Part shown: piece by piece, positions 1,441-58,316 of the stretch
How the letters are laid out: the number at the start of each line of letters is the position of its first letter
Numbering within the stretch: position 1 is the stretch's first letter
IMG/VR virus record: IMGVR_UViG_3300032050_000075
Coordinates: 1-64,000 of that record
Length of the DNA stretch: 64,000 nucleotides
Reading direction: 5' to 3' (one strand)
From: a virus
Notes under the pieces: model-generated
Told to the model about the DNA's origin: nothing
The model's input: the letters and a program-made list of their open reading frames with translations, nothing else
Database searches by the model: none
Translations under genes and position numbers: made by a program

Positions 1441-1605
1441 ATGTGTCCAGATATCTCAATGTGTTCAGGGGGTGATTGCCCCCTGAAACACTCTTGTTAC
1501 AGACATACTGCTACTCCATCAGAGTTTAGGCAGAGTTATTTCTTAGGAATACCACTAGAAAAAGATGGTACATGTAAATATTATTGGGAGGATACAAATG
1601 AGTAA
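1441..1605 (+). CDS. Small Cys-rich protein, 54 aa
   Basis: The chosen start is ATG 1441, right after the stop of the exported-protein gene; a longer in-frame reading would run back into that gene. The N-terminal half carries Cys 2, 8, 13 and 19 in the pattern C-x5-C-x4-C-x5-C, followed by SEFRQSYF and a further Cys near residue 46 before the Tyr-Tyr-Trp end. The four-Cys pattern suggests metal binding. Similar short Cys-patterned proteins are familiar as unnamed proteins in Bacteroidota phages, but no function is known to me. It overlaps the next start by 8 bases. Confidence 0.6.
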   Translation: MCPDISMCSGGDCPLKHSCYRHTATPSEFRQSYFLGIPLEKDGTCKYYWEDTNE

Positions 1606-1858
1606 ACAAACAGCAGTAGAGTGGTTAGCTGAAATGAATACTGATATGAAAAAGCAAACAGCAGTAGAGTGGTTATTTGCACACCTATTACCTTTCCTTG
1701 AGTTCTCTGACTTAAAGGAAAGAGAGCATTTTAGAAAATGCTTATCTGAAGCCAAAGCAATGGAGAAGGAGCAGATTATTAATGCTTATGAGGTTAGCCA
1801 TATATCAATGATGACCAGTGAGCAATACTACAACGAAACATACGGAGGTGACAAATGA
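1598..1858 (+). CDS. Hypothetical 86-aa protein with duplicated QTAVEWL segment
   Basis: ATG 1598 is preceded by GGGAGGA in the end of the previous gene, which decides this start over an upstream in-frame option. The protein opens with KQTAVEWL twice, at residues 4-11 and 20-27, encoded by a 21-base exact repeat 48 bases apart. The rest is helical and charged, ending in NETYGGDK. Short QTAVEWL proteins recur as unnamed small proteins in Bacteroidota phages and prophages; the in-frame duplication of the N-terminal element is specific here. Function unknown. Confidence 0.7.
   Translation: MSKQTAVEWLAEMNTDMKKQTAVEWLFAHLLPFLEFSDLKEREHFRKCLSEAKAMEKEQIINAYEVSHISMMTSEQYYNETYGGDK
1607..1675 (+). repeat. 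Two 21-bp direct repeats encoding QTAVEWL
   Basis: The 21 bases at 1607-1627 recur exactly at 1655-1675 (start CAAACAGCAG, end GTGGTTA), 48 bases apart and in the same frame. This looks like a short tandem duplication of the N-terminal coding element of the 86-aa gene. Confidence 0.9.
1845..1851 (+). promoter_or_regulatory. Strong Shine-Dalgarno site (first copy)
   Basis: GGAGGTG upstream of ATG 1855 complements the 16S rRNA 3' tail. The same site recurs at 2045 and 2505. Most other genes in the window have A-rich leaders without such a site, so these three stand out. Confidence 0.75.
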
Positions 1859-2058
1859 ATAAATGGTTAGATTATCTATGGTTAAATAGATTTCAATGGT
1901 ATCGTAAATGGAGAAAAGGTACTTGGTATAAACATCAATTCACAGTAGATGCACAACAAATTTCTCTAACTTTTATCGGTACTTGGTGGGCAAGATATGG
2001 TTATTTAAATAGATATTCAATTGTAATTGACAACGAAACATACGGAGGTGACGAATGA
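1855..2058 (+). CDS. Hypothetical aromatic-rich 67-aa protein
   Basis: The start at ATG 1855 overlaps the previous stop (ATGA) and has a perfect GGAGGTGA site 6 bases upstream. The product is unusually rich in Trp and Tyr (eight Trp in the first half) and basic (RKWRKGTWYKH), suggesting a small membrane-surface or nucleic-acid-contacting protein. The C-terminus is the shared NETYGGDE stretch. No family recognised. Confidence 0.6.
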   Translation: MNKWLDYLWLNRFQWYRKWRKGTWYKHQFTVDAQQISLTFIGTWWARYGYLNRYSIVIDNETYGGDE

Positions 2059-2144
2059 TAATCTTAGCAGCAGTTATTGTAAGCCTATCAATATGGTTAT
2101 GTGCACTTGAGTTAAATGAAATCAATAAAAAATTAAGGAAGTAA
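2055..2144 (+). CDS. Small single-span membrane peptide, 29 aa
   Basis: ATG 2055 to TAA 2142-2144 encodes a hydrophobic segment (ILAAVIVSLSIWLCAL, about residues 3-18) followed by a charged tail (ELNEINKKLRK). The gene is too short for most gene callers, but the perfect GGAGGTGA site, the 4-base overlap with the previous gene and the clear one-helix topology support it. The tail should lie in the cytoplasm by the positive-inside rule. Function unknown; tiny membrane peptides of this type are common in phage accessory blocks. Confidence 0.6.
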   Translation: MIILAAVIVSLSIWLCALELNEINKKLRK

Positions 2145-2147
2145 ACA

Positions 2148-2519
2148 ATGAATAAAGAATTTATTCCATACGAACAAGCATTAGAACTCATTAAACTTGG
2201 GTTTGATGAAAAGTGTATAGCTTGGTATCCAAATGACTCAGCCGCATTATCCATTGATGGTGTTTATCTTGGTGAAAGAAGATCTGGTTCGTATAAATTA
2301 CTTGCATATGCACCACTATACCAACAAGCATTTAGATGGTTCAGAGAGAAGTATAAAGTAAGGTTTTTTATTCAATCAGGTATGTCAGATTTGGGAGAGT
2401 TCTTTAAGGTTATATTTCCCGATGGTGAGCAAAGGGGTATGAGCTATACTACCTACGAAGAAGCAGAGTTGGAATGCCTAAAGAAACTAATTGAAATAGT
2501 AAAAGGAGGTGACAAATGA
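2148..2519 (+). CDS. Conserved-type hypothetical protein, 123 aa
   Basis: The protein starts NKEFIPYEQALELIKLGFDE and has the core PLYQQAFRWFREKY at about residues 56-69, followed by a beta region and a helical C-terminus. This layout is familiar from unnamed proteins in Bacteroidota phages and prophages; I know of no demonstrated function. The start ATG 2148 lies 3 bases after the preceding stop. Its last codons (GGDK) form the ribosome-binding site for the next short frame, as in the two repeats upstream. Confidence 0.75.
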   Translation: MNKEFIPYEQALELIKLGFDEKCIAWYPNDSAALSIDGVYLGERRSGSYKLLAYAPLYQQAFRWFREKYKVRFFIQSGMSDLGEFFKVIFPDGEQRGMSYTTYEEAELECLKKLIEIVKGGDK

Positions 2520-2560
2520 GAGTTTATCTTTTTTTAATAAACTTAATAAACTTGTTATAA
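2516..2560 (+). CDS. Possible 14-aa hydrophobic peptide
   Basis: ATG 2516 sits behind the third copy of the strong GGAGGTGAC site and opens a 14-codon frame (MRVYLFLINLINLL) that stops directly before ATG 2561. The strength of the site and the TAAATG junction suggest ribosomes start here and re-initiate on the next gene. The peptide may be only a translational leader or a remnant of a lost gene. Confidence 0.35.
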   Translation: MRVYLFLINLINLL

Positions 2561-2782
2561 ATGAGTAAAGTAACACTAGAGTTTAATCTTCCTGAAGATG
2601 TAGATGATTTCCGACATGCTGTCAATGGACAGGAGTACTACATTGCTCTGCATAATATCAGAGAGGATGTTAGACAAATCTGGAAGTACAGAGAACTCAG
2701 TAAAGAAGAGTATGCTCTTGTAGATGAGATTTACCAAATGATTAATCAAAGAATTAATGAAGGAGAAAGAGCCAATGATTAA
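2561..2782 (+). CDS. Hypothetical 73-aa protein
   Basis: A small acidic helical protein that opens with a beta strand (VTLEFNLPED) and continues through an amphipathic region (EYYIALHNIREDVRQIWKY). Short proteins with this LEFNLPED opening are frequent in phages of Bacteroidota but remain unnamed. The start follows directly after the TAA of the 14-codon frame, and its end overlaps the next gene by 8 bases. Function unknown. Confidence 0.65.
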   Translation: MSKVTLEFNLPEDVDDFRHAVNGQEYYIALHNIREDVRQIWKYRELSKEEYALVDEIYQMINQRINEGERAND

Positions 2783-3068
2783 AGAAGGTGATCAAGTAGT
2801 ATGTATAGATGATGTATTTGATCCCCGGTCAATTGAGATTATCCCTAATAGACCTATTAAAGATAATATCTATACTGTCCGAGAGATGAGATATTATGAT
2901 ATGCATGATAAAATGGGCATTACTCTAATGGAAATTAAAAATCCTCTTATTGTAAGAGACACATTTGGTAGAAAACAAGAACCTAGTTTTAACATTATCC
3001 GGTTTGCTCCGTTAGATGAGGTATTAGATAGTATTAGTATAGAAGAACTACAAGAAGAACTAGTATGA
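2775..3068 (+). CDS. Hypothetical 97-aa protein
   Basis: ATG 2775 is preferred to an upstream ATG at 2757 because AAGGAG at 2759-2764 lies at a usable distance before it. The product reads like a small barrel: KEGDQVVCIDD at the start, a middle YTVREMRYYDM strand and an acidic helical tail (EELQEELV). The opening resembles small beta-barrel phage proteins with a GDxVxCID strand, but I cannot name a family. The end overlaps the radical SAM start (ATGA). Confidence 0.6.
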   Translation: MIKEGDQVVCIDDVFDPRSIEIIPNRPIKDNIYTVREMRYYDMHDKMGITLMEIKNPLIVRDTFGRKQEPSFNIIRFAPLDEVLDSISIEELQEELV

Positions 3069-3928
3069 GTAAAGTAAAATTAGTTACCCGGAAGTCTATG
3101 CAGATCAGACCTTCGGGTAGATCTACTGACTTCATTGCACCCAGTTTTGGGTATGGTTGTATAGGCTTTAATTGTTCATATTGCTACATGAAAAGACATA
3201 AGCCAGAAGGTCTAACAGTAGCTAAGAATATACATGATGTTCTTACTGCCATTGATCATCACTCTTGGTTTGCAGATGTAGATAAACCTAATCAGACTCA
3301 TAAGCATTATGTAACTTATGATATAGGTTGTAATGAAGACCTAGCACTTCATCATAAGTATTATGACTTTGATAAGATAGTTAGGTTTTTTAAGACTCAT
3401 GGAAAAGCATTTGGTTCATTTGCTACTAAATATGTAAACCGCAAATTGCTAGATTATGATCCTGCTAATTCTATGAGGATACGATTTAGCCTCATGCCCC
3501 AGAAATATGCTGATTTATTAGAGCCAGGGACTAGCAAGATATTAGATAGAATTATTGCTATTGATGAGTTCTTAGCAGCTGGTTGGGATGTACACATAAA
3601 CTTCAGTCCTGTAATCGTAACAGAAGGATGGGAACAAGAGTATGCAGCACTATTTCAGCTAGTGGATAAGTATGTTACTACCAAGCACAAAGTAAAAGCA
3701 GAGGTAATCTTCCTTACCCATAATGCTGATAAGCATAAGTATAACCTGGATCATGGTATACCTGGTGAAGAACTATTATGGAGACCAGATATTCAGGAAG
3801 ATAAAGTATCCGAATATGGGGGTAGGAATATTAGGTACAAGCACGACCTAAAAAATGATTATATCTATCAGTTTAAAATGTTGCACGATTTGATAATCCC
3901 TTGGAATACAATTAGATACATTTTTTAA
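3065..3928 (+). CDS. Radical SAM protein, spore-photoproduct-lyase-like
   Basis: The 287-aa protein has a Cys cluster at C32, C37 and C40 within GYGCIGFNCSYCYMKR, fitting a 4Fe-4S radical SAM site, but with spacing C-x4-C-x2-C rather than the usual C-x3-C-x2-C. A Tyr follows the last Cys as in spore photoproduct lyase-type enzymes. The remaining blocks (TYDIGCNEDLALH, KAFGSFATKYVNRKLL, RIRFSLMPQ, WDVHINFSPVIV) match the lyase-like partial TIM-barrel layout, and similar proteins are present in other crAss-like phages. A DNA repair or base-modification role is likely, but the substrate is unknown. It overlaps the previous gene by 4 bases and lies in an operon with small genes. Confidence 0.75.
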   Translation: MSKVKLVTRKSMQIRPSGRSTDFIAPSFGYGCIGFNCSYCYMKRHKPEGLTVAKNIHDVLTAIDHHSWFADVDKPNQTHKHYVTYDIGCNEDLALHHKYYDFDKIVRFFKTHGKAFGSFATKYVNRKLLDYDPANSMRIRFSLMPQKYADLLEPGTSKILDRIIAIDEFLAAGWDVHINFSPVIVTEGWEQEYAALFQLVDKYVTTKHKVKAEVIFLTHNADKHKYNLDHGIPGEELLWRPDIQEDKVSEYGGRNIRYKHDLKNDYIYQFKMLHDLIIPWNTIRYIF

Positions 3929-3929
3929 T

Positions 3930-4244
3930 ATGACTGATGAGGACAAACTAAAAGTTATTAATCTACTAATGCTTCTGCAGATATGTGTATATGCAGCTGA
4001 TGAAACTACAACTATCTCTTGGTTCAATAAACAGAAAACTAAAAATGTTCTAAATACATTTCTTGATATCATTATTAAGGAGCACGGACACGTAATAAAA
4101 AGTTTTTGGGATATTCCTGAGATGGATATGGTGGAAATTACCAAAGTTCTTAGTAACTTTGGCAAAGCTGCCGGATCATTAGAATACTATGATCTAGTAG
4201 AAGTAACTAAATTAATTAACGATTATAAAAATCAAAAATCATGA
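3930..4244 (+). CDS. Hypothetical helical 104-aa protein
   Basis: The sequence is almost entirely helical (DEDKLKVINLLMLLQICVY and a second half with EYYDLVEVTKLINDYKNQ). There are no Cys clusters and no membrane segment. It starts one base after the radical SAM stop and overlaps the next gene by 4 bases, so it belongs to the same transcript. No family recognised. Confidence 0.6.
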   Translation: MTDEDKLKVINLLMLLQICVYAADETTTISWFNKQKTKNVLNTFLDIIIKEHGHVIKSFWDIPEMDMVEITKVLSNFGKAAGSLEYYDLVEVTKLINDYKNQKS

Positions 4245-4645
4245 GTTGTTTATTCACTTGTTTGTTATTTGCAATTGGCGGTGCCCTTGCATCAGGTATT
4301 CTTGTTGATCTTAAATGGAAAGATGCTGCAAAAAAACTGATTGATAGAATCAGTTCTCTTGAAAGCGGTCTAAGCATTAAGCAATCAGAAATCAATAATT
4401 TAAATTCAAAATTGATTGCTGCTAATTCACGAATCAATATGCTTGATGTCAGTCTTTGTGCAAAAGATAAAGAACTTAGCGAACTATCAAAGACAGCAAA
4501 GCAGTCTGAAAAAACAGAAACTAATCCTAACGTTACTCCTGTAAATCCTCAACAAGGTTTGAGTAAAAAACGCGGTCCATATAAAAAGAAGAAGAATTAT
4601 GGCAGACCAGCTTCCAATAACAATTCAGCTAAGAAAACAGAATAA
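4241..4645 (+). CDS. Membrane-anchored coiled-coil protein with basic tail
   Basis: Residues 1-22 (MSCLFTCLLFAIGGALASGI) form one hydrophobic segment. Residues about 30-90 have heptad-like Leu and Ile spacing (LESGLSIKQSEINNLNSKLI), typical of a coiled coil, and the tail after residue 105 carries KKRGPYKKKKNYGRP, resembling a basic DNA- or RNA-contacting segment. The topology (short N-terminal anchor then a rod) resembles inner spanin subunits, but there is no lysin nearby and the basic tail is not typical of spanins. A membrane tether for DNA or the replisome is an alternative. Function is inferred only. Confidence 0.6.
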   Translation: MSCLFTCLLFAIGGALASGILVDLKWKDAAKKLIDRISSLESGLSIKQSEINNLNSKLIAANSRINMLDVSLCAKDKELSELSKTAKQSEKTETNPNVTPVNPQQGLSKKRGPYKKKKNYGRPASNNNSAKKTE

Positions 4646-4976
4646 AGAATTAGTCATTGTACATGACATGAGTAGATCAAAATTAGATCTATTTGTAAAA
4701 TCATTAGAGGAAGGACAGGTTGTTGCAGTTACTTACGAAGTAATTAGCGCAGATAAATCTTATGCTCAGTTATCTAAATTGATGAAATGCATAAGAGAAG
4801 TAGCAACCTATACAGGTGATACATTTGAGAGTGTAAAACATGAGGTAAAAATCCGGTCTGGACTATGCATTGATGGAAAATGCAAGTCGTTTGCTGACTG
4901 CTCAAAAGATGAGATGAGTCTAGCAATACAGGCAATAATTGAAATAGGTGATATTGTAGGATTTAACCTACATTAA
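4599..4976 (+). CDS. Hypothetical phage protein, 125 aa
   Basis: It overlaps the coiled-coil gene by 47 bases when read from ATG 4599; a later Met (residue 24) is possible but would remove the first beta strand (LPITIQLRKQNKELVIVHD). The second half is helical, with VKIRSGLCIDGKCKSFADC and SKDEMSLAIQAIIEIGDI, a layout seen in NinB-like and similar recombination-associated phage proteins. The likeness is weak and I do not assign it. Its end contains a small hairpin, and it converges with the minus-strand gene at 5004. Confidence 0.6.
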   Translation: MADQLPITIQLRKQNKELVIVHDMSRSKLDLFVKSLEEGQVVAVTYEVISADKSYAQLSKLMKCIREVATYTGDTFESVKHEVKIRSGLCIDGKCKSFADCSKDEMSLAIQAIIEIGDIVGFNLH

Positions 4977-4990
4977 GACCAAAAAAGTGA

Positions 4991-5018
4991 GATAATGTAG
5001 GTTTTATCCTACATTATC
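4991..5018. terminator. Hairpin between convergent genes
   Basis: An 11-bp perfect stem (4991-5001 with 5008-5018) and a 6-base loop. On the minus strand it is followed by TCACTTTTTT, and on the plus strand by TTCTTTT, so it could stop transcription from both sides. The stop codon of the minus-strand gene (5004-5006) lies in the loop. Confidence 0.65.
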
Positions 5019-5363
5019 TTCTTTTGCAGGACCATCAACTGGTGTTTTGGTTTGTGTTGCAGGATCGTATTCAACCCAATGCAGTTTATCTTGTGTTCTT
5101 GCTGCAGATTCTACCAAAGTAAGGAATGCAAGAATGGTTTGGCAATGGTATGTAAAAGCATCATCAATAGTGCCTTGACCAATCTTTTTCATTACCTCCG
5201 TAAAATGTTCTTGGTCTTTGAATGGTACAAATTCCAATAGCATTTGATTAAATCGCATAACGTAATCTACAGGAAGTTCAATAGCAATGCTAGTATTTTC
5301 CTTATATACCTCAGCTCTTACAGGCTTGAGGTCTTCTACTGGGATTGTTGTTTCTTCTGACAT
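5004..5363 (-). CDS. Lone minus-strand hypothetical protein, 119 aa
   Basis: The only clear minus-strand gene in the left 22 kb. The product is acidic, with a helical central region (DYVMRFNQMLLEFVPF, then AFTYHCQTILAFLTLVESAA) and an unstructured Pro/Asp-rich tail. Proteins of this general type (a helical bundle of about 110 residues) are frequent unnamed proteins in Bacteroidota phages. It has its own promoter-like site (5383-5390, minus) and a hairpin at its 3' end, so it is likely an independent transcript, perhaps expressed at another time from the + strand operon. Function unknown. Confidence 0.7.
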   Translation of the reverse strand: MSEETTIPVEDLKPVRAEVYKENTSIAIELPVDYVMRFNQMLLEFVPFKDQEHFTEVMKKIGQGTIDDAFTYHCQTILAFLTLVESAARTQDKLHWVEYDPATQTKTPVDGPAKEDNVG

Positions 5364-5382
5364 GTTGATTTTATTTAATGCA

Positions 5383-5412
5383 CAAATATAAATGAAAGAT
5401 ATAAACTTACAA
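5383..5412 (-). promoter_or_regulatory. Bacteroidota-type promoter for the lone minus-strand gene
   Basis: On the minus strand, TATATTTG (5390-5383) matches the TAnnTTTG -7 box of Bacteroidota housekeeping promoters. A CTTG lies 19 bases further upstream (5413-5410), close to the -33 TTTG element. Expected start of transcription is about 5376, 13 bases before ATG 5363. The promoter overlaps the 5' end of ung. Confidence 0.6.
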
Positions 5413-6096
5413 GAAATAAAAGAAAAACTGTTTCAAAAGTTGAAGTCAGCTGGTTGGGGACCAGCAACTGTAAATTTTATTATGTCATCAGACTTTGATA
5501 ATATATTGGAATTCCTTTATAATGAATCAGTTAACGGTAAAAAGTGGACCCCACAGATAAAGAATCTATTCAGAGCATTTGAGGAATGTACATATGAAAA
5601 TACTAGGGTTGTAATACTTGGCCAAGATCCTTATCCCCAAGTAAATGTAGCAGATGGCATTGCATTTAGTTGTAGCATGTACGGCACAATAGAGAAGTCC
5701 CTAAAGTATATGTATGATTCTATAGAAAGGACCACAGATCAGCAGCTAGAAAGATCAGCAGACTTAACAAAATGGGCTAATCAAGGAATGTTAATGCTAA
5801 ATAGTGCATTGACTACGACAATAAATAAACCTGGGTCTCATCAGCTAGTATGGAAACCGTTTACTGCAGCAATTATTGATCATCTGATTTGGAATAAACC
5901 AGGTCTAATCTACGTATTTCTTGGTAAAAGAGCACAGGAATATGCTGATATGATACCAGATAATCATTACAAAATTTTTGCTACGCATCCTGCAAGTGCA
6001 GCTTATACTGGACAAGCTGAATGGGATTGCAATGATTTGTGGAATAAAATAAATAAAGAACTAGAAAGAAATGGGAAGCAGAAAATTAACTACTAA
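5392..6096 (+). CDS. ung: Uracil-DNA glycosylase
   Basis: A 234-aa family 1 uracil-DNA glycosylase that removes uracil from DNA. The water-activating loop is at residues 77-82 (GQDPYP, catalytic Asp79), with the downstream block ADGIAFS. The uracil-binding Asn lies in the MLMLNSALT strand and the His loop is at about 199 (HPASAAY, in place of HPSPLS). Pro instead of His after GQDPY, and Ala-Ser-Ala in the His loop, are deviations from bacterial Ung. Length is normal for the family. It opens the replication block, where it could act in repair or in removing uracil during replication. The start leaves only 28 bases to the divergent gene. Confidence 0.92.
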   Translation: MKDINLQEIKEKLFQKLKSAGWGPATVNFIMSSDFDNILEFLYNESVNGKKWTPQIKNLFRAFEECTYENTRVVILGQDPYPQVNVADGIAFSCSMYGTIEKSLKYMYDSIERTTDQQLERSADLTKWANQGMLMLNSALTTTINKPGSHQLVWKPFTAAIIDHLIWNKPGLIYVFLGKRAQEYADMIPDNHYKIFATHPASAAYTGQAEWDCNDLWNKINKELERNGKQKINY

Positions 6097-6388
6097 AAAT
6101 TATGTACCACTACCTGAAAAAATATCTATCCGTGGATATTTAGATTACAAGTCTGGAGAATTCACATTTATTGTTTTTAGCAATAAAAGATATGTTCAAG
6201 CAAAAGGATTGTATGATGCTCTTTCTATATTTGGTATCAATTATGACAAAGCAAAATTGATTGTTGCTGAGATGTCTAATGAGCTAGATACTACTCATAA
6301 ATTCAGAACAACAGAAGCTAACTATACTCAATTTGCCTTAGACCAAAGATTTCTTTATGATACTAATACAGTTTTACGATATCCTTGA
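6071..6388 (+). CDS. Hypothetical 105-aa protein
   Basis: It overlaps the end of ung by 26 bases and the next gene by 32 bases. The first half is basic and beta-rich (YVPLPEKISIRGYLDY, FTFIVFSNKRYVQAKG); the second half is helical. No motif is recognised. The tight overlap with ung and the following gene places it in the replication operon. Confidence 0.6.
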   Translation: MGSRKLTTKNYVPLPEKISIRGYLDYKSGEFTFIVFSNKRYVQAKGLYDALSIFGINYDKAKLIVAEMSNELDTTHKFRTTEANYTQFALDQRFLYDTNTVLRYP

Positions 6389-6935
6389 TGAGCTGGATGT
6401 AACTCCCAATGCATTTCACATCTTATGGTGCATTGCTAATAAGCGCAGACCTAAATCTGTAAATGCACATACTGAATTAAGAAATCTTAATGCAGCTAAA
6501 CTTATAGATGATAAGTATGCAATAACCGAGGAAGGTAAAGCAGTATTGAAAAAGGTTGAGGATATATTCCAGGAAAAAATAGTAGAAGAAAAAGCTACTG
6601 TATCTGAAGATTATATTACTCAGTACCTTAATCTATTCCCTAAAGGTAAATTACCTAGTGGTAAATCAGCTAGAGTAAACCGTAGAGATATAGATAAAGC
6701 CTTTAAATGGTTCTTTCAGAACTATGACTATAGTTGGGATACAATTCTTAAAGCAACAGCCTACTATGTAGATAGTTTTGAGAAACAGAAGTTTATGTAC
6801 ATGAGAAATTCACAATACTTTATTGGTAAAACTAACCCAGACAAGACAAAAGATTCAGATCTTGCTAGTTATTGTGAGATAATTTTAAATGGTGGTTACG
6901 AAGAAGAAACCACATTATCAGAAAAAGTAGTATGA
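6357..6935 (+). CDS. Putative replication-initiation or helicase-loader-like protein
   Basis: The 192-aa protein has an N-terminal winged-helix-like region (residues about 5-70: DELDVTPNAFHILWCIAN, then LRNLNAAKLIDDKYAITEEG, with the wing AITEEGKAVL). A helical C-terminal domain follows, with DKAFKWFFQNYDYSWD and YMRNSQYFIGK. Proteins with this C-terminal block commonly lie just upstream of phage helicase genes, here 230 bases before a DnaB-like helicase. A loader or initiator role is therefore plausible, but it is inference from architecture and position. Confidence 0.6.
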   Translation: MILIQFYDILDELDVTPNAFHILWCIANKRRPKSVNAHTELRNLNAAKLIDDKYAITEEGKAVLKKVEDIFQEKIVEEKATVSEDYITQYLNLFPKGKLPSGKSARVNRRDIDKAFKWFFQNYDYSWDTILKATAYYVDSFEKQKFMYMRNSQYFIGKTNPDKTKDSDLASYCEIILNGGYEEETTLSEKVV

Positions 6936-7129
6936 AGTATAAAAAGTTGGCAGCCGTTGTAATGATGTTATCCATCATGCTCCTGTTACATGTAATTGTT
7001 TGGAGGGTTAGTACTGATATACTACACATTCAAATTAGTTTTCTGCAGATAATTTTTATTAACATTCTCTTGGAATTGTTGAGTAAAGGTTATAGTTTTA
7101 TATCCCGGAAAGTCCTAGAATCATTCTAA
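6932..7129 (+). CDS. Small membrane protein with two predicted helices
   Basis: The 65-aa protein has hydrophobic stretches at about residues 6-23 (LAAVVMMLSIMLLLHVIVW) and 35-50 (ISFLQIIFINILLELL), with basic residues at the N-terminus and before the end (KGYSFISRKVLESF). That predicts a hairpin with both ends in the cytoplasm. It overlaps the previous gene by 4 bases, so it is co-transcribed with replication genes; it could anchor replication at the membrane or be an unrelated accessory. No family recognised. Confidence 0.6.
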   Translation: MKYKKLAAVVMMLSIMLLLHVIVWRVSTDILHIQISFLQIIFINILLELLSKGYSFISRKVLESF

Positions 7130-7164
7130 GTTACTGCTCCGGTAACAATCTCATTTTCAGTATA

Positions 7165-8154
7165 ATGGTAGAAAAAAAGCATGCTTGGAAAGGGCAGAAA
7201 GATGGTTTTGTCCAAGCACTAGAATACATGAAAGGAAGGCGAGAAGGTAAGATACGTAGTATCAAAACACCTTGGCCTAAATTTAATGATGCATCTACCG
7301 ATGGTATAGAGTGGAATACTCTAACTGTTATTGCAGGTAGGTCTGGTGCTGGTAAGACTTTAGTAAAAGACAATATTGTAAATAACGCATTTGTACTGAA
7401 TAAAGGTGAAGAATTTAGGATATTAGAATTTCAGTTCGAGATGCTTTCCAGAGTAACAGCATTACGTGAATTCTCTAGTGTGGTCAATAGATCATACAAA
7501 GATTTGTGCAGTGCTAATGGTCAGCTAGATGATGAAACTCTTTTAAAATGTTATGACTATGCAAAGATTAGAGTAAAGTATCCTATCGATGTAGTAGAAA
7601 CTCCTATGACTGTTAAAGAGATTGAAGATGTAATTATTGATTACATGGAAAGTCACATTAATACAGAAGGTGAAGTTCCAAAATACGTCAATACGATTAT
7701 TACTCTTGACCATTCATACCTGCTTAAGGTAAATAATGGACAGAATAAGCAGGATATGCTTTATGAATTTGCAGAGACTCTTACAAAACTTAAGAGAAGA
7801 TATCCTATTGCGTTTATTATTTTAAGTCAGCTTAACAGAAACATTGATAATCCAGAGAGAAATGAAGATGGTAGGGCTGGTAACTATATCTTATCTTCAG
7901 ATCTTATGGGTGCCGATGCTTTGCTTCAGCATGCTGACGTTGTTGTTGGTCTCAATAGACCAGGGTATTTCAAGATTCGGTACTACGGTCCTGAAAGATA
8001 TATCATTGATGATGAACGAGTTATGGTAATGCACTTTCTGAAATGCAGAAATGGTGATACCAGAATGAGTTTCTTCAAAGGTAATTTTGAAAGTATGACT
8101 GTGGTAGAAATACCGACACCACCGAAACAAGAAAAACGTTTAAATACAAAATAA
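7165..8154 (+). CDS. DnaB-like replicative helicase (RecA-fold domain only)
   Basis: A 329-aa RecA-fold ATPase. Walker A is GRSGAGKT at residues 58-65, the Walker B-type strand is IITLDHSYLL at about 179-188, and the block FIILSQLNRN matches the DnaB H3-type motif (LSQLNR). The N-terminal helical domain of full-length DnaB is missing, so this is a short helicase of the kind seen in several phages. It should unwind DNA ahead of the polymerase encoded at 18069. The next gene starts at its stop codon. Confidence 0.85.
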   Translation: MVEKKHAWKGQKDGFVQALEYMKGRREGKIRSIKTPWPKFNDASTDGIEWNTLTVIAGRSGAGKTLVKDNIVNNAFVLNKGEEFRILEFQFEMLSRVTALREFSSVVNRSYKDLCSANGQLDDETLLKCYDYAKIRVKYPIDVVETPMTVKEIEDVIIDYMESHINTEGEVPKYVNTIITLDHSYLLKVNNGQNKQDMLYEFAETLTKLKRRYPIAFIILSQLNRNIDNPERNEDGRAGNYILSSDLMGADALLQHADVVVGLNRPGYFKIRYYGPERYIIDDERVMVMHFLKCRNGDTRMSFFKGNFESMTVVEIPTPPKQEKRLNTK

Positions 8155-8699
8155 TGATTAAGACTCAAGAAAAGAAGAACCTGGTTGATAAGAAAGCTAG
8201 GATGCAAAATCTTGTAGATTATCACCAGAAAACTTTTGAGGCACTTGGTATAGATGATCCTTTGTTTGTACCTACAATGGCTTATAAACCGTATACAAAG
8301 AATGAATTACATGTTAGTTTATTTCCAAGTCAGCTAAAGAAGGGACAAGATATCTACACAGAGTTTGTAAATAAGGAATTTGAACCTGAGACTGAGGAAA
8401 GAACCTTGTATAAGTGGAAACATAACAAGTATTGGGAAGAAGAATATGATTCTGTTGAACTAGAAAACAGCAGTGATCGCAGATATCTAGTACCCGTAAG
8501 TGAACTAGAAGTTATAGTTGCTCCAGTTAAAAAGGAAACTGCTGATTCTCAGATAATTATGTTTGATACATTTGATGAGATCATGGATCCAGATGAGGAC
8601 TGTCCTCTAGATAGAATTACTCTTAGAGATTTAGCAGCAATCATGTTGCAAAAACCTGTAAGTAGGAAGAAGTGGCTAAATCAAATAATTAAATCGTAA
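8154..8699 (+). CDS. Hypothetical protein between helicase and Sak4-like gene
   Basis: The 181-aa soluble protein is charged and mostly helical at the N-terminus (TQEKKNLVDKKARMQNLVDY), with a very acidic middle and C-terminal section (FDEIMDPDEDCPLD). The start shares a base with the helicase stop, and the stop shares a base with the next start, so translation is likely coupled. No family recognised. A helper of replication or recombination is suggested by position only. Confidence 0.65.
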   Translation: MIKTQEKKNLVDKKARMQNLVDYHQKTFEALGIDDPLFVPTMAYKPYTKNELHVSLFPSQLKKGQDIYTEFVNKEFEPETEERTLYKWKHNKYWEEEYDSVELENSSDRRYLVPVSELEVIVAPVKKETADSQIIMFDTFDEIMDPDEDCPLDRITLRDLAAIMLQKPVSRKKWLNQIIKS

Positions 8700-9442
8700 T
8701 GGAAATAGTACTGCCAACAAAAAAACAGAAGCCTGAAACTACAAGTCCAGAGAATCTTGTAATCTTTAGTAAGCCTAAGGTAGGTAAGACTACCTTGTTT
8801 GCTGACCTACCTGATTGTTTGATTCTAGATTTAGAATCTGGTTCTAAGTATGTTGAGGCTTTAAAAATTGGTGCTGCCAATGTAGATGAGATTAAGGCAA
8901 TCGGTAAAGCAATTAAGGATGCAGGTTATCCCTATAAGTACGTAGCCGTAGATACAATTACTGCTTTAGAAGAAATTTGTGTCCCATTTGCTGAGGAACT
9001 TTATTCTCAATCTCCCATGGGAAAGTCCTGGTTTTCAGAGGGTAAGGTTAAATATGGTAGCATACTTAACATGCCTAATGGTGCCGGCTATCCTTGGCTT
9101 CGTGAGGCTTTTTCAACTATTATTGCCTATATTAAGAAATGGGCACCAAGAGTTATTCTTGCTGGTCACGTAAAGGATGTGTTGCTGGAAAAGAATGGAG
9201 CTGAATTCACATCAATGGATTTAGATCTGACAGGTAAACTTAAGAGAATTATCATGCAGCACTCTGATGCAATAGGTTATTTATATAGACGAGGAGATAC
9301 TAACATTCTTAGTTTTAAAACTAAAGATGATGTATCTTGTGGTGCTAGACCTATTCATTTAAAGAATAAAGAATTTGAAATTTCAAAAATTAACGAGGAC
9401 GGTAGCGTAACAGTTGACTGGTCTCAAATCTTCATCGACTAA
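8699..9442 (+). CDS. Sak4-like RecA-family ATPase
   Basis: A 247-aa RecA/RAD51-like protein of the phage Sak4 type. Walker A is SKPKVGKTT at residues 24-32, immediately followed by LFADLPDCLILDLESG, a combination characteristic of this family. The Walker B-type strand is YVAVDTITALEEI at about residues 81-93, and VILAGHVKD follows near 155. Members bind ATP and assist single-strand annealing with a phage SSB. The gene directly downstream is an SSB-like protein, matching the known Sak4-SSB pairing. Confidence 0.82.
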   Translation: MEIVLPTKKQKPETTSPENLVIFSKPKVGKTTLFADLPDCLILDLESGSKYVEALKIGAANVDEIKAIGKAIKDAGYPYKYVAVDTITALEEICVPFAEELYSQSPMGKSWFSEGKVKYGSILNMPNGAGYPWLREAFSTIIAYIKKWAPRVILAGHVKDVLLEKNGAEFTSMDLDLTGKLKRIIMQHSDAIGYLYRRGDTNILSFKTKDDVSCGARPIHLKNKEFEISKINEDGSVTVDWSQIFID

Positions 9443-15077: not shown

Positions 15078-16166
15078 ATGCAGAGAAGCATAAAATTAAC
15101 AGAAGAACAATTAGATAGATTAAAGTTTATTGAAGGGTCTGGCCTATTGGTCAGACCCGGTAATTATTATAATATCCACTTTGTTAATGGGGATACTTAT
15201 AGTAAGATATATAAAATGTTTACGGCGTATACAGACATAAGCAGTATACCTAAAGATGCAAAAGGATTTATCCTACCAAAAAATAACCTTAAGAAGGATG
15301 ACATCAAAGAAATCTGTAAGCGTTATGATTTGAAGATTACTACTGATATCAGCAAAGCAGATTTCTTTATTGGCAATGATCATGTATCCGCATATTGCTC
15401 AATGTATGACTATACTGTGGATTCTAGGGCATTGATGTGTCAAGCATATATTAATCTGTTTGATTATGAGCATTGTGGTCCTAAGATAAAAAATGAGTTT
15501 ATAAACTTCATGTCATCATTAGCAGGAATAACTCCCGATCTTCTTAATGAGCAGACTTCTATTGCATATACTAAAGAAATCAATACCAGATATGAAGACT
15601 GGACTATGTATGCTACTGAAGGTAAAAGTAATTATATTACGGATGAGGGTATTTATATTCTATATAACATGCTCTCTAGAAAGGTTCCAGTAGTAAGCGT
15701 AGATAGTTTGTTCAAGGGTATAGATAAAGTTACTATAGATAAGGACATCTATGATACGTTAGTTATGATGTTTAAAGGAACAGATGATGATAAAGCCGTG
15801 GCAATCAACATGTTATATAATTGTAACATTGATGCTTCTCTCTATTATATCTGGAAATTAATAAATGATTTGTCATATGTTATTGTGTATTATAAACATC
15901 GTAATACTAAGGCGCATAAGACATTCATGGAATCTATTATGAAGCTTCAGCATTTAGATAATATAGAAGCAATAGCTTTATTTAAAGAAAAGAATTGCTT
16001 GACTAAAGAAATCTATGAGGATCTGTCTAGCAAAATACTTAACAGAGTTAATAGCTATGGTATAATTGAGGAGACAAAACGTAATAATGTTTTGAATATA
16101 TCAATTGATATTATACCATACGAAATCTTTATGGAAATAACTAAACCCGAAGAAGTAGATGTTTGA
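15078..16166 (+). CDS. Hypothetical 362-aa protein, possible BRCT-like segment
   Basis: No family is clearly recognised. Residues about 60-96 (AKGFILPKNNLKKDDIKEI, then KRYDLKITTDISKADFFIGND) have the strand-helix-strand-strand spacing of a BRCT-like domain. The remainder is helical, with a middle region (ITDEGIYILYNMLSRKVPVV) and a long helical C-terminus. It follows the ATPase by 6 bases and overlaps the PDDEXK nuclease by 8 bases, so it may link the AAA+/VWA pair with recombination. The BRCT idea is tentative. Confidence 0.6.
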   Translation: MQRSIKLTEEQLDRLKFIEGSGLLVRPGNYYNIHFVNGDTYSKIYKMFTAYTDISSIPKDAKGFILPKNNLKKDDIKEICKRYDLKITTDISKADFFIGNDHVSAYCSMYDYTVDSRALMCQAYINLFDYEHCGPKIKNEFINFMSSLAGITPDLLNEQTSIAYTKEINTRYEDWTMYATEGKSNYITDEGIYILYNMLSRKVPVVSVDSLFKGIDKVTIDKDIYDTLVMMFKGTDDDKAVAINMLYNCNIDASLYYIWKLINDLSYVIVYYKHRNTKAHKTFMESIMKLQHLDNIEAIALFKEKNCLTKEIYEDLSSKILNRVNSYGIIEETKRNNVLNISIDIIPYEIFMEITKPEEVDV

Positions 16167-17118
16167 TCCACAAGCAGAAGAAAGATTTTATGAGAACAGG
16201 TTTCATTTCAGTTATTCTGGATTAAATAAGTTATTGTATTCACCATCTATATTCTATAAGCATTACATTCTAAATCAGCAGGACGACAGAACAGATACGC
16301 ATCTTGTAGAGGGCAGGCTATTGCATTGCCTTCTGCTTGATGCAGAATCATTCAATAAGCAATTTATTCTTGCTTCTGGTTCTGTACCTACAGGTCCAAC
16401 CAAACAGGTAATAGATCGTGTATTTAGAAGTGCTGTAGAGCAGAGACGTGCAGATGAATCAATGTCAAGTTTTCAGAGCGAAATACTTGACATATTGAAA
16501 GACATTAACTTTCATCAAAGACTGAAGACTGATGAACAAAGACTGGAAAAAATCCTTACCGAAGATGCAATTGCATATTTTGAATTCCTGAAGAACAGAT
16601 CAGGTAAGGATATTATTGATGAAGATATGTACACCAAGGCTAAAGAATCCGTTGAGATGATTAGAAATAATCAATTAGCAATGGATGCTTTGTCTGGTGA
16701 CCATGTAGAAAGCGAGGTCCCGTTAAATTGTACAATTAATGATTATCCCTTTGGTATTAAAGGTATTGTAGATAGAATTATAATAAGGGATTCTAAGGTC
16801 ACAATTTGCGACCTTAAAACTACTGGTAAGACTGTTAGTGAGTTTGCAGATACTGTTGATTACTATAACTATTGGATGCAAGCAGCAATGTATGTGGAAC
16901 TAGTTGCCTGCACAAAGCAAATAGATCCAACAGAAATTGATTTCAATTTTTTAGTAATTGATAAATATCAGCAGATATATGTGTTTGATGTTGAAAAAAA
17001 TACTATGTTATTATGGAGAGAAAAACTTAAAGACAAACTTGAAATAGCTAAATATCATTATAATAATAGATATTACGCTTTACCATATGAGTTTGCAACA
17101 GGTAAAATCACCCTATAA
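16159..17118 (+). CDS. PD-(D/E)XK family exonuclease
   Basis: The 319-aa protein shows the phage RecE/Cas4-like PDDEXK pattern: FSYSGLNKLLYSPSIFYKHY near residues 17-36, GRLLH at 52-56 with His56, Asp205 in GIVDRI, and Asp218-Leu-Lys220 in ICDLKTTG, followed by YYNYWMQAAMYVEL. The enzyme probably degrades one DNA strand to make single-stranded ends for the Sak4-SSB system encoded upstream. The start overlaps the preceding gene by 8 bases. Confidence 0.82.
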   Translation: MFDPQAEERFYENRFHFSYSGLNKLLYSPSIFYKHYILNQQDDRTDTHLVEGRLLHCLLLDAESFNKQFILASGSVPTGPTKQVIDRVFRSAVEQRRADESMSSFQSEILDILKDINFHQRLKTDEQRLEKILTEDAIAYFEFLKNRSGKDIIDEDMYTKAKESVEMIRNNQLAMDALSGDHVESEVPLNCTINDYPFGIKGIVDRIIIRDSKVTICDLKTTGKTVSEFADTVDYYNYWMQAAMYVELVACTKQIDPTEIDFNFLVIDKYQQIYVFDVEKNTMLLWREKLKDKLEIAKYHYNNRYYALPYEFATGKITL

Positions 17119-51642: not shown

Positions 51643-54600
51643 TATCTCGGAGAATTTAGAAGCTTGTTGTTGATTACTTTGAGTAGCATTTTTACGTTGC
51701 CTGATATCTTCTTAGTCAGCACTACGTGATTTAAGTAATGTCTAAACTTTTTACGCTGGAATGCTGGTTTAGCATAATTCAGATTATTAGGATTTAGAAC
51801 TCTTATATAACCATTAAGCTCTGTATCCCAGATTGATTGCTGTACAAGTGTACCAGCAAAGAATTCTCCTCTGTCATTCGTAATGTCCCAGAACTGATTA
51901 AATCTAATCTTCTGCTCTTCCTTAGAGTAAAGGATATCTATATTAGATAGATTTACTTTTGGGAATCCTAAAATCATTGGTGCATTATTCTTAGGAGTTG
52001 CATTTAGCCTAAGTACACCAGATGTCTGCTCTGTATTGTAAACAATAGCCTCATCAAAGTTATGATCTAATACTTGGAATCTGTCAATGCCATCTCTATC
52101 GTATACATACGATTCAAGTAAGTATTCTACGCTTCTTGTTGTATTAACTGTTTGACCTGTAGATGATACATAATCAATCTCCCAAGGATATTCAATTCCA
52201 TAAAAACGGCAGAAAGTACTGCTTGTAAAATTAGCATGCTTCCAAATAAAACTATCATAACCAGCATACTTATAGGTAAGGAATCCTCTTGAACTAGCCA
52301 TCACATAATCAGGATGCCAATCATGGAATGATAACCAAGATTTTGTTTTAGTATCAAAACTTACTGTCCATGACACGTCATCAAAATATCTTAAATCTCT
52401 TACAGTAGTTCTTACATTAAGATTAAAACCACGGATTGATATCTGACCATCTCCTAAATAACGTACCCCACCTTCATATTCAGGTTTAATTTTAAAATCC
52501 CGCTTAGAGAAATAAAGTACTCCATTGTCATTATCATATACAACTTGACATGCAATACCTAGTGTTGGATTACCTATCAAATCAAAATCTGGTATTCTAT
52601 CTAATAAAAAGTATTTTAGGTACTTAGAGAACCACCATTTCATACCCATATCGGATATTGCCATAAGGCCATCAGCTACAGTAAATATCTTACCCTGTGC
52701 AGCGCTCATCCAGTAAATACCTGCTGGAGTATTGACAACGCTTAGTCTATCTTGACATGATCCATGTAAGAACTGAGCATCAGCATTATTTAATGTTTGT
52801 AATGGCTGACTAAATAATCCTCCATCACCAATGGTAATTTTAGTTCCAGCAACAGTTTGAAGTTGGTCTACAGCATTAAATAACAGCGGAGTAGAATTCT
52901 CAAATAATATGATTGCCCCGTTCTTATTGATTGATTTAAAGGCAGTTACACGATCTGAAAAGTCATTATAGTTATTTACAAGATAAACTCTCCAGTAATC
53001 TTTCTTATCCTCTTTAGTCTGGGGTAAGGAGTATATTACCCTATTAGGGAAATAAGTAAAGCATGTTTCGGCTACCTCTGGATTATAGGATCTGTCTTGC
53101 AGATTTCCCCAAGATATATAACTATTGTAAATCTTAGAAAGACCAAGAGAAATATCATATTTATAGTAGTTTCCAAACTTAATAATATCTGTATCGAATA
53201 GCTCCCTTAGGTTGCTATAACCATAAGGGTCATATATGCGTTCTTGTTTTATTTCTCCCCAGTCCCTTAAATCAACGTTGTATTCTGATTCTACAAAGAA
53301 ATCTCTTACTCCTGATTGAAATAAATACATGTAACTATTTCTTACCCCAAATCTAAACGTTAGAGTAACAGGCAAGTCTAAACCAAATATAGAAAGACCA
53401 TCCGTATCTAAATTATACTTTGATGAGGGTAATAATAACGATAAGGAATCTATAAATCCAGTAGCGTCATCATCATCAAATATATTTTCAAAAACCTCTC
53501 CAAATCCTTGAAATAAATCCGATCCATCAAATTTGGTAAAATCAGCATAAAATCTTGGGTAATTGATCATATATCTGGTAGTATAATCAATCTCAGTCCC
53601 ATCAGTAACATTGTATAACCAATCAAAGAAATAAAAGAAAGTATTCTTTTCTGTGTATCTTCCAATATAAACATCACCTCCTAATATTACAGATGTAGAT
53701 CTCACCACTACTCTAGCACCAGTCGCATCAGCAAAAAATGATGGTATTTCTTGTCCATTAGAAAAAACATTTACCGAACAACCTGTTGGAATTTGTTTTG
53801 GTGAATCTATCTGACCGTATTGATTTCTATATCTTACTTTTAATCCAGCATAATAACACGAACTTGTTGTTCTAAAATATCCTGAGCTTGGATCTTTATA
53901 TGTAATACCATAGTTTTTGACATAGTCGGAAGTCTCGCCTAATGTTATTACTGTTCCAATTGTTTGTACAGATGCATCAACTAATAATGGATTCTGTACA
54001 TTAAATGGTCCAACTTGCAATCCTATGCATTGGGATCTATATAAATTATTTACTTCTTTATCACCAAGAACACTAAATTGATTTTCTAAATAAGTAGAAT
54101 CAGAAATCGATCTACGGGTATTTCCTAGTTTTACATTACCTGGTTTTATTACAGCAAGATCAATATGAGAAATTGATCTATAGACATAGTCTCTATAGGG
54201 CACTATGGCCCTTACTAAATCTAATACTGCGCTAGTACTTGACCCCCAGTAAAATGCAAATGTTGGGATAGACCCAAGAAGTTGTAAAGCCTGAGGTAAA
54301 TGCTTAAAATCTGAAGATGTAAGTTCTACCGATTGGCTACCTCCTCCAATAAATGCACCTGGAAGTGAGGCAGTTAGATATGTACCATATGCAGCATCTT
54401 CTCCAAAAATGTTACTTGCAAAATTAGCAAAGGTGTTATATGTTTGTGAATATGCTGTAAAGGCTCCTGGGGCATTAGCTTCTATTTTTCTTACATTATC
54501 ACCCCGCATGGCCCTGGCTGCGTAAGCCATACCTACTATTGTTGATATTAGATATGCAAAATTGGTTAGCAGTTTTTGTTTTGGATATCCTGGAACAGGT

Positions 54601-57623: not shown

Positions 57624-58316
57624 TTAGCGTTCTATTATATAATTAGAATAATTGATTTTTTTAAGAATCTGTCTAGGCTTGCCATAATAAAACTTATGGA
57701 TCAAAGTATCTCTTTTGATGTTTAAGAAATCTTCAACTTCTCTCTTACTATTAAATATAGTAACTTCTCCTGTTATTGTATTAGTAAGAGTTACTAGTTT
57801 TCCTTTTTTTCTAGATCCTATTGATTTTTTTCTAGCTTCTTTTATAGCTTCAATATGAGATTCGGTATAGTTTCTTTTTTGCCCTATAAGTTTTTTTGTT
57901 CTTGCGGCAACCCATTCCTTAGGTTGTTTCTTTCCTTTTAAAGATGAAGATTTTCCTATTCTGTTTAATCTTTTACGCTCTTTAGCTTCATTTGTTAAAG
58001 AACCTAAATCTTCTCCACCATGCGTAAGATTATAACCTTTATCTCTATTACATGTTTCATAAGAACTTATCCAAAACATTTCAAATTCTTTAAGTTCTTC
58101 CTGCAAGCATTCCTGAACTAGAAATGCAACAAAAGGAGATTTTGAATATGCTGCTTGAAGATATTCATTGTAATGCTGCTTCCTTACTAAATCTTTTGTG
58201 TGTTGATTTATTCTGCTTAGTATATTTCTGGAAAGTCCAATATATTTCTTACCATTGCTTTTATTCAAAAGACAGTAGATACCGCATGTATTATTTTTTA
58301 TGTTTAGTATTTCCAT
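57624..58316 (-). CDS. GIY-YIG homing endonuclease with NUMOD-type repeats
   Basis: The 230-aa protein has GIY at residues 12-14 and YIG at 25-27 with Arg30, the catalytic layout of a GIY-YIG nuclease, then a helix (EFEMFWISSYETCNRDKGYNL) with the usual Glu. The C-terminal half contains KGKKQPKEWVAARTKKLIG and SHIEAIKEARKK, NUMOD3-like DNA-binding repeats, and a NUMOD1-like end (FNSKREVEDFLNIKRDTL). It sits between ring and hub genes with a TAATG overlap to the former. It is a mobile gene that probably cuts relatives lacking it. Confidence 0.88.
   Translation of the reverse strand: MEILNIKNNTCGIYCLLNKSNGKKYIGLSRNILSRINQHTKDLVRKQHYNEYLQAAYSKSPFVAFLVQECLQEELKEFEMFWISSYETCNRDKGYNLTHGGEDLGSLTNEAKERKRLNRIGKSSSLKGKKQPKEWVAARTKKLIGQKRNYTESHIEAIKEARKKSIGSRKKGKLVTLTNTITGEVTIFNSKREVEDFLNIKRDTLIHKFYYGKPRQILKKINYSNYIIER

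Follow-up and report, generated by a model that had tools for sequence, protein, structure and literature searches.

In lambdoid phages, short conserved boundary sequences between modules target homologous recombination; we know of none that fuses a block of C-terminal codons to a near-perfect Shine-Dalgarno (SD) sequence, or that is shared as widely as the element described here. The PeSL cassettes of T4-type phages are reportedly composed of a promoter and a terminator hairpin at gene borders (work said to be that of Arbiol et al. 2010 and Comeau et al. 2014). In the accessible part of the source, PeSL of T4-type phages are linked with modular gene shuffling (PMC4503421). The SAS of Cluster K mycobacteriophages is a directional, asymmetric 13-bp sequence, GGGATAGGAGCCC, which typically lies 3-7 bp upstream of a start codon (Pope et al. 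2011, PMC3203893); according to the portion of that paper available to us, it accompanies non-structural genes of different families, is rare elsewhere and has a proposed role in translation initiation.

We compared these systems with a repeat found in the window, i.e., the whole 64,000-nucleotide stretch analysed here (positions 1 to 64,000 of the 80,959-base IMG/VR record IMGVR_UViG_3300032050_000075; hereafter G000). This repeat, which we call the linker, is a dispersed element of ~39 nt that encodes EQYYNETYGG(D/N)K and a stop in frame and then provides an SD and the next ATG, with stop and start overlapping. Like the SAS as described in the available text, the linker is a short directional repeat just before the starts of genes of different families. 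The same text has the SAS essentially confined to one phage cluster, whereas the linker is present in more than one phage lineage: a terminase like that of Flavobacterium phage 11b was found in 14 of 44 records and is absent from G000 and G024. The linker is also coding, with a stop/start overlap, while the portion of PMC3203893 available to us describes the SAS neither as the coding end of an upstream gene nor as tied to gene exchange, and the SAS-defining 13-mer does not occur in the linker consensus, which has only SD-like letters in common with it. With the PeSL, the linker has in common that it recurs at gene borders as a regulatory element and appears to mediate modular shuffling; the PeSL reportedly combines a promoter and a hairpin, whereas the linker, judged by its consensus of coding sequence plus SD, appears to be translational (tail codons, SD, ATG), and a repeat listing gave no local inverted repeat in 1830-2519. 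Like the lambdoid boundary sequences, it would be a short conserved border sequence targeting recombination. In our analysis, T4 PeSL cassettes and Cluster K SAS are the functionally nearest known systems. From the sequence comparisons below, we consider it quite likely that the repeats are SD-carrying mobile gene joints, which would make small accessory genes exchangeable and ready for translation.

The initial annotation had placed three 15-nt copies in the window, each ending a different protein and starting the following gene, and this description proved exact. The sequence GGAGGTGAC(A/G)AATGA occurs at 1844-1858, 2044-2058 and 2505-2519, and a scan of the whole record revealed no further exact copy; the copies end ORFs 1598-1858 (...YGGDK), 1855-2058 (...YGGDE) and 2148-2519 (...KGGDK), and the ATGs at 1855, 2055 and 2516 fall inside them. 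When up to 3 mismatches to the 15-nt motif were allowed, the window held 7 matches (2.07 expected; 7 reached in 0/100 shuffles), and GGAGGTGA occurred 4 times (0.84 expected; 4 reached in 1/100 shuffles), the fourth occurrence being on the minus strand at 53674. A 29-nt direct repeat, ACAACGAAACATACGGAGGTGAC(A/G)AATGA (1830-1858 and 2030-2058; 28/29 identical; 200 nt apart), includes copies 1 and 2 and has weaker relatives at 1579-1606 and 2129-2156; taken together, members of this repeat family border the small ORFs 1598-1858, 1855-2058 and 2055-2144 as well as the start of ORF3 at 2148 (Table 1). Copy 3 has only the SD/stop/start part in common with copies 1 and 2, and it pairs with the 16S tail over 11 bp, compared with 8 bp for copies 1 and 2. 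ORFs were called greedily as the longest ATG ORF and some starts are therefore wrong (ORF1 was called from 1565, not 1598). The start of ORF1 contains an internal 30-nt duplication (1598-1627 and 1646-1675, 90% identical), because of which the protein begins with MSKQTAVEWLAEMNTDMKKQTAVEWLF; the ORF1 relative in L002 starts at MNTDMKKQTAVEWLF.

Table 1. Coordinates of the small-gene array and of two candidate recombination genes in the window.
Feature	Position	Strand	Description
Left outer junction	1576..1601	+	End of gene 1441-1605, GGGAGG SD, ATG 1598; repeat family D1/D6
ORF1, 86 aa	1598..1858	+	KQTAVEWL...AKAMEKEQI...EQYYNETYGGDK; the linker derives from the native tail of this family
Linker copy 1	1819..1858	+	C-terminal codons, SD GGAGGTGAC, ATGA stop/start overlap; -15.2 kcal/mol; 29-nt repeat proper 1830-1858
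ORF2, 67-aa cassette gene, 204 nt	1855..2058	+	Between copies 1 and 2
Linker copy 2	2030..2058	+	Tail NETYGGDE, SD and ATG of 2055; -15.2 kcal/mol
29-aa membrane-like micro-gene MIILAAVIVSLSIWLCALELNEINKKLRK	2055..2144	+	Belongs to a cluster of 6 linker-led downstream proteins
Right outer junction	2129..2150	+	Weak SD-like AAGGAAGTAAACAATG, ORF3 start; repeat family D1; -5.9 kcal/mol; right insert edge
ORF3, 123 aa	2148..2519	+	Widespread phrog_25117-like family, elsewhere mostly without SD ends
Copy 3, SD-only junction AAAAGGAGGTGACAAATGA (KGGDK-stop)	2494..2519	+	-17.9 kcal/mol, 11 bp
14-aa micro-ORF MRVYLFLINLINLL	2516..2560	+	Started by copy 3; conserved in L233
Sak4-like ssDNA annealing protein	8699..9442	+	phrog_124, 9.3e-25; PF13479; candidate recombinase for short homologies
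Exonuclease VIII-like nuclease	16159..17118	+	phrog_412, 3e-26; PF12705; candidate partner of the annealing protein

An exact-pattern scan of viral contigs located the linker in at least 119 IMG/VR stretches, a raw count inflated by selection through the linker itself, with most records being fragments and some contigs recurring among the loci (L001/L055, L002/L066). Analysis of all matches listed for these 119 stretches gave at least 121 unique sites; duplicate windows were removed before site, tail, SD and dialect counts. Among the matches listed, the consensus is AACGAAACATACGGAGGT(A/G)ACAAATGA, and conservation spans GAACAATACTAC to ATGA with background on either side (84 unique windows from 80 of the at least 119 loci). 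A second scan with the peptide-level consensus YYNETYGG and its GGNGG, in which the ATG was not required, brought the pooled set to 168 unique sites. The first glycine codon is GGA in 167 of these 168 tails, some of which came first from a stricter pattern that fixes GGAGG; in ORFs of 200 aa or longer, GGA makes up 29% of the glycine codons. GGAGG stands 5-6 nt before an ATG at 152/168 sites, and of the 160 sites for which an ATG was identified, 124 have the ATGA stop/start overlap. Several dialects occur (YGGDK, YGGNK, YGGGEQ, YGGQDE), with YGGNK and YGGQDE pairing more weakly (-10.9 and -10.7 kcal/mol).

Among the matches listed, 115 downstream proteins fell into 66 clusters, and 96 of the 112 upstream proteins (35 aa or longer) belong to one ORF1-like family after tail trimming; the remainder form 12 small clusters, which include probable distant ORF1 relatives, leaving only ORF2 and the NGDVFDIGQ family as clearly unrelated. 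Examination of the stop-bounded upstream frame in the same matches showed that at 7 of 114 sites the linker does not end an ORF of 35 aa or longer: 4 lack any ATG ORF, and the other 3 correspond to micro-ORFs (MELYYNETYGGNK twice, and MTNETYGGNK). The stand-alone micro-ORF MELYYNETYGGNK, in contigs L037 and L088, amounts to the linker and little else, and a linker-led 268-aa ORF in L072 (13141-13944) has many CSSCRSC-type repeats. Pfam assigned the DnaA C-terminal domain, DUF7446, HTH_39 and MarR_2 to one member each of the 66 downstream cluster representatives; named PHROGs were few among them, and PADLOC returned 0 matches. Since searches with the 39-nt consensus gave only chance matches in the phage collection (E 0.6 or higher) and no match in the plasmid collection, we found no isolate with the linker; the phage collection likewise yielded no ORF1 relative. 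A scan of GTDB genome contigs gave 14 matches, of which 13 were chance and 1 was a true linker (L138, a 4.5-kb contig binned as Flavobacteriaceae). The linker-bearing uncultured viruses, many of them unrelated, probably infect Bacteroidota. We found no description of the linker in the literature searched, which comprised few subscription journals.

A first case of apparent exchange at the linker is that of ORF2. Its 204 nt are 100% identical between near-copies of the window (L001/L004) and L002/L003, and in L005 the DNA is 100% identical up to a fusion point at which the downstream linker is replaced, the protein being identical over 65 codons. The flanks on both sides are unrelated between L001/L004 and L002/L003/L005, and the switch from identity to background lies inside the linkers on both sides. 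L002, L005 and L033 carry a terminase type other than that of the window phage; the one in L002 shares 47% identity with the terminase of Flavobacterium phage 11b, and 1 of the other 44 records encodes a relative of the G000 major capsid protein. The linker tail of L005 and L006 continues in frame into a HIVNTNE... module, the same module that follows the ORF1-family tail in L002, and so the joint also makes protein fusions.

A second case was provided by a sister phage, G045 (locus L233; 123,735 bases), whose capsid protein has 99% identity with the G000 protein. Around the array, its genes follow the G000 order (65-98% protein identity for genes matched over most of their length), with gene 1441-1605 followed directly by ORF3: a 550-nt, three-gene segment (1598-2147) is missing. 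The empty site is an SD junction, GGGAGG/GGAGGT adjoining ATG, and in the empty-site alignment the left outer junction is the left edge of the insert; neither an ORF2 relative nor an exact GGAGGTNANNAATG site (0) was found in G045. The difference may reflect either a gain by G000 or a loss by G045. Variation in small-gene content between copies, which the initial annotation had proposed to look for in relatives, was therefore found in a sister with 99% capsid identity. Its suggestion of a cassette array copied by recombination, or of imported small genes, is supported by segment 1598-2147 and by the ORF2 that is identical in another lineage; copy 3 has a different history, and the dispersal of the linker over many phages goes beyond that suggestion. 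The copy 3 junction in L233 is AGAGGTGACAAATGA, and since both this junction and the 14-codon ORF are common to the two phages, copy 3 is older, and was probably inherited rather than recently moved; copy 3 as a recent duplicate of copies 1 or 2 was dropped on the strength of the junction common to the sister phage. The 14-codon ORF MRVYLFLINLINLL follows the strongest SD of the array, differs by one conservative change in L233 and is likely an expressed micro-gene or leader peptide. The 29-aa micro-gene is also present in L232 and L303; in L232, the 29-aa gene and the beginning of ORF3 are close to the window, the upstream sequence is different and identity stops at the linker.

Alignment of 132 loci all-against-all, the loci being mostly chosen for the linker and the contig pairs non-independent, placed 192 of 1740 internal alignment ends at most 8 nt from a linker in both loci (random positions: ~0.009%). 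As the linker served to select these loci, a fairer measure is how often a junction loses the homology of its neighbour, and we determined it for tight junctions and genes of at most 150 aa as per-junction means. Homology of the neighbour was lost at linker junctions in 0.73 (downstream; 44 junctions) and 0.76 (upstream; 67), at SD-only junctions in 0.62 (27) and 0.73 (24), and at plain junctions in 0.39 (322 downstream, 321 upstream), values in which paralogues of the ORF1 family could mimic neighbour turnover. The contrast was smaller at a flank identity of 90-98% (linker: 0.53/0.68; SD-only: 0.45/0.51; plain: 0.35/0.34). Of 5180 fully internal blocks, 22 had SD junctions at both ends in both loci, and 12 of these come from the single ORF2 event in duplicate contigs.

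Strong SD sites are otherwise rare in G000, as the initial annotation had held for the window: 2 of 67 called genes pair at -8 kcal/mol or stronger, and mean pairing at gene starts (-1.7 kcal/mol) is weaker than at random positions (-3.0 kcal/mol). Across the 119 linker loci listed, genes of at least 250 aa had no SD excess (16 vs. mock 17 of 227) and genes of 110-250 aa had a weak one (58 vs. mock 31 of 604), while genes of less than 110 aa had an SD in 190 of 1010 (mock 64), with 66 pairing at -13 or stronger (mock 3). At ORF3-family loci chosen by protein, outside linker contexts, an SD preceded 7 of 319 genes of less than 110 aa.

If the peptide were what is spreading, (E)QYYNETYGG(D/N)K would be a functional C-terminal tag (for localisation, degradation or partner binding) spread by selection, with the SD secondary. 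YYNET(Y/F) does occur in ORF1-family members without SD: among 68 unique ORF1 relatives chosen by their N-terminal part, 22 have an SD-type tail and 46 have no SD end, many of the latter carrying YYNET and ending YYNETFKSE-stop or similar; the tail is also found on the clearly unrelated ORF2 and NGDVFDIGQ proteins. Yet the linker sites that are not the tail of any ORF of at least 35 aa (7/114 among the matches listed), and the tail that sits inside a longer protein in L005, speak against a tag. As neighbour turnover is similar at SD-only joints, which lack the peptide, and as the SD glycine codon is fixed as GGA (167/168), we rejected a protein tag as prime mover and regard this explanation as unlikely. 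Site-specific or transposition-like movement by a dedicated recombinase, which would recognise the linker as integrases recognise attC in integrons, could account for the sharp boundaries, the conserved motif and the single-gene cassettes in head-to-tail arrays. An attC site is an imperfect palindrome used by a tyrosine recombinase, whereas the linker is asymmetric, not palindromic, and the one inverted repeat that involves it is a short 15-nt pair whose other arm lies far away; several dialects with differing 3' ends coexist, and at the empty site an SD meets a diverged SD-like sequence, the kind of junction that homology or micro-homology would be expected to leave. No integrase was seen among the window genes scanned near the array, and for this reason and the asymmetry attC-like cassettes were rejected, such mobility being in our view highly improbable.

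A more ordinary possibility is that these are operon junctions, with independent SDs at stop/start overlaps, an inherited ORF1-family tail and non-specific mosaicism, in agreement with the single family, natively tailed with the linker, that supplies 96 of the 112 upstream proteins among the matches listed. Against this, the 29-nt repeat is present in the window ORF2 but the ORF2 relative in L008 has a different end, and ORF3 relatives chosen by protein mostly end VKNK-stop or similar, 4/60 unique sequences having an SD within 20 nt upstream of the start; several ORF3 relatives in linker contexts end KGGDK or KGGEQ. The excess of breaks at linkers also speaks against ordinary operon junctions. 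Convergent SD sites alone were rejected because turnover at linker and SD-only joints exceeds that at plain small-gene joints and SDs are at mock level in the large genes of linker phages; we give this explanation very little chance. The simplest reading of the ORF1 and ORF3 tails would be that the SD/stop/start block was grafted onto the ends of genes previously without it.

If the repeats are mobile gene joints, each would open with the final codons of the gene before it, continue with an SD formed by a pair of glycine codons (GGA GGN), and close with a stop codon that overlaps the ATG of the following gene. The same joint of ~30-40 nt recurs in different phages, and homologous recombination or strand annealing between joints during co-infection could therefore replace, insert or delete a small gene without a frame break. 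The incoming gene would at once acquire a ribosome-binding site coupled to its neighbour, and the upstream frame would stay closed. Candidate joining enzymes are the Sak4-like protein and exonuclease in G000, a RecE-like nuclease in L002, and a Sak-like protein with an exonuclease in L011. The SD would presumably be used in the host for initiation or for stop-start reinitiation, with a presumed benefit. Such joints would answer how small phage genes with no assigned function swap between unrelated phages yet keep their expression, the recombined joint being what ends one gene and starts the next, and the linker could serve as a marker for accessory-gene islands and for micro-genes missed by annotation.

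The SD-led genes stand in phages whose other genes avoid SDs, in what is probably a host phylum, Bacteroidota, with ribosomes that are reported, in the accessible part of the source, not to recognise SDs (PMC9976891); the large genes of linker phages show no SD excess, as in Bacteroidota. The question of when Bacteroidota ribosomes read SDs therefore becomes testable in infection. The available portion of the same source describes rpsU (bS21) of Flavobacteriales as having an exceptionally strong SD (-14 to -21 kcal/mol) in an otherwise SD-avoiding genome (PMC9976891). Copies 1-3 (-15.2, -15.2 and -17.9 kcal/mol), likewise in an SD-avoiding genome, are within this reported range; unlike rpsU, by that account a single autoregulated host gene, the SDs here lead many phage accessory genes. 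A phage-encoded bS21 as the cause of the SDs was dropped, the gene being present in 0/44 linker-phage records, fragments included. From the pairing energies and SD avoidance alone comes the idea, which we hold to be rather doubtful, that shuffled small accessory genes with rpsU-strength SDs form a second translational class read mainly by ribosomes with an exposed anti-SD. Such ribosomes might be, for example, bS21-depleted and made or enriched during infection, while structural genes would keep the normal SD-less route. If true, the linker would be both a recombination joint and an address placing any incoming gene in the SD-led class.

The phage in the window is, by our inference, crAss-like, with a host that is probably a member of Bacteroidota. 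Its capsid protein (in L151) matched by tblastn the uncultured gut phages cr55_1 and cr1_1 (E 2e-6 and 5e-6) and the Cellulophaga phages phi4:1 and phi17:2 (3e-8); we take cr55_1 and the Cellulophaga phages to be crAss-like, which makes the major capsid protein homologous to those of Crassvirales. The closest match was Leptolyngbya phage Lbo-JY46 (1e-50), a reason for caution. G000 encodes a DNA polymerase and a DnaB-like helicase in addition to the annealing protein and nuclease of Table 1. A spore photoproduct lyase-like protein is encoded at 3065-3928 of the window (PF20903, 8.4e-21), and also in L007 and L233. An inverted repeat at 4940-5028 (36-nt arms, 81% complementary), between the convergent genes 4599-4976 (+) and 5004-5363 (-), is likely a bidirectional terminator. 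Among the structural genes, ORF 57624-58316 begins with GIYCLLN...KYIG, which we take to be the motif of GIY-YIG endonucleases, and is a probable homing endonuclease. The structural region in L151 contains, on the minus strand, tandem similar ORFs at 1831-5307 and 5320-8781 (1158 and 1153 aa), in which a VWA-like stretch was recognised by eye.
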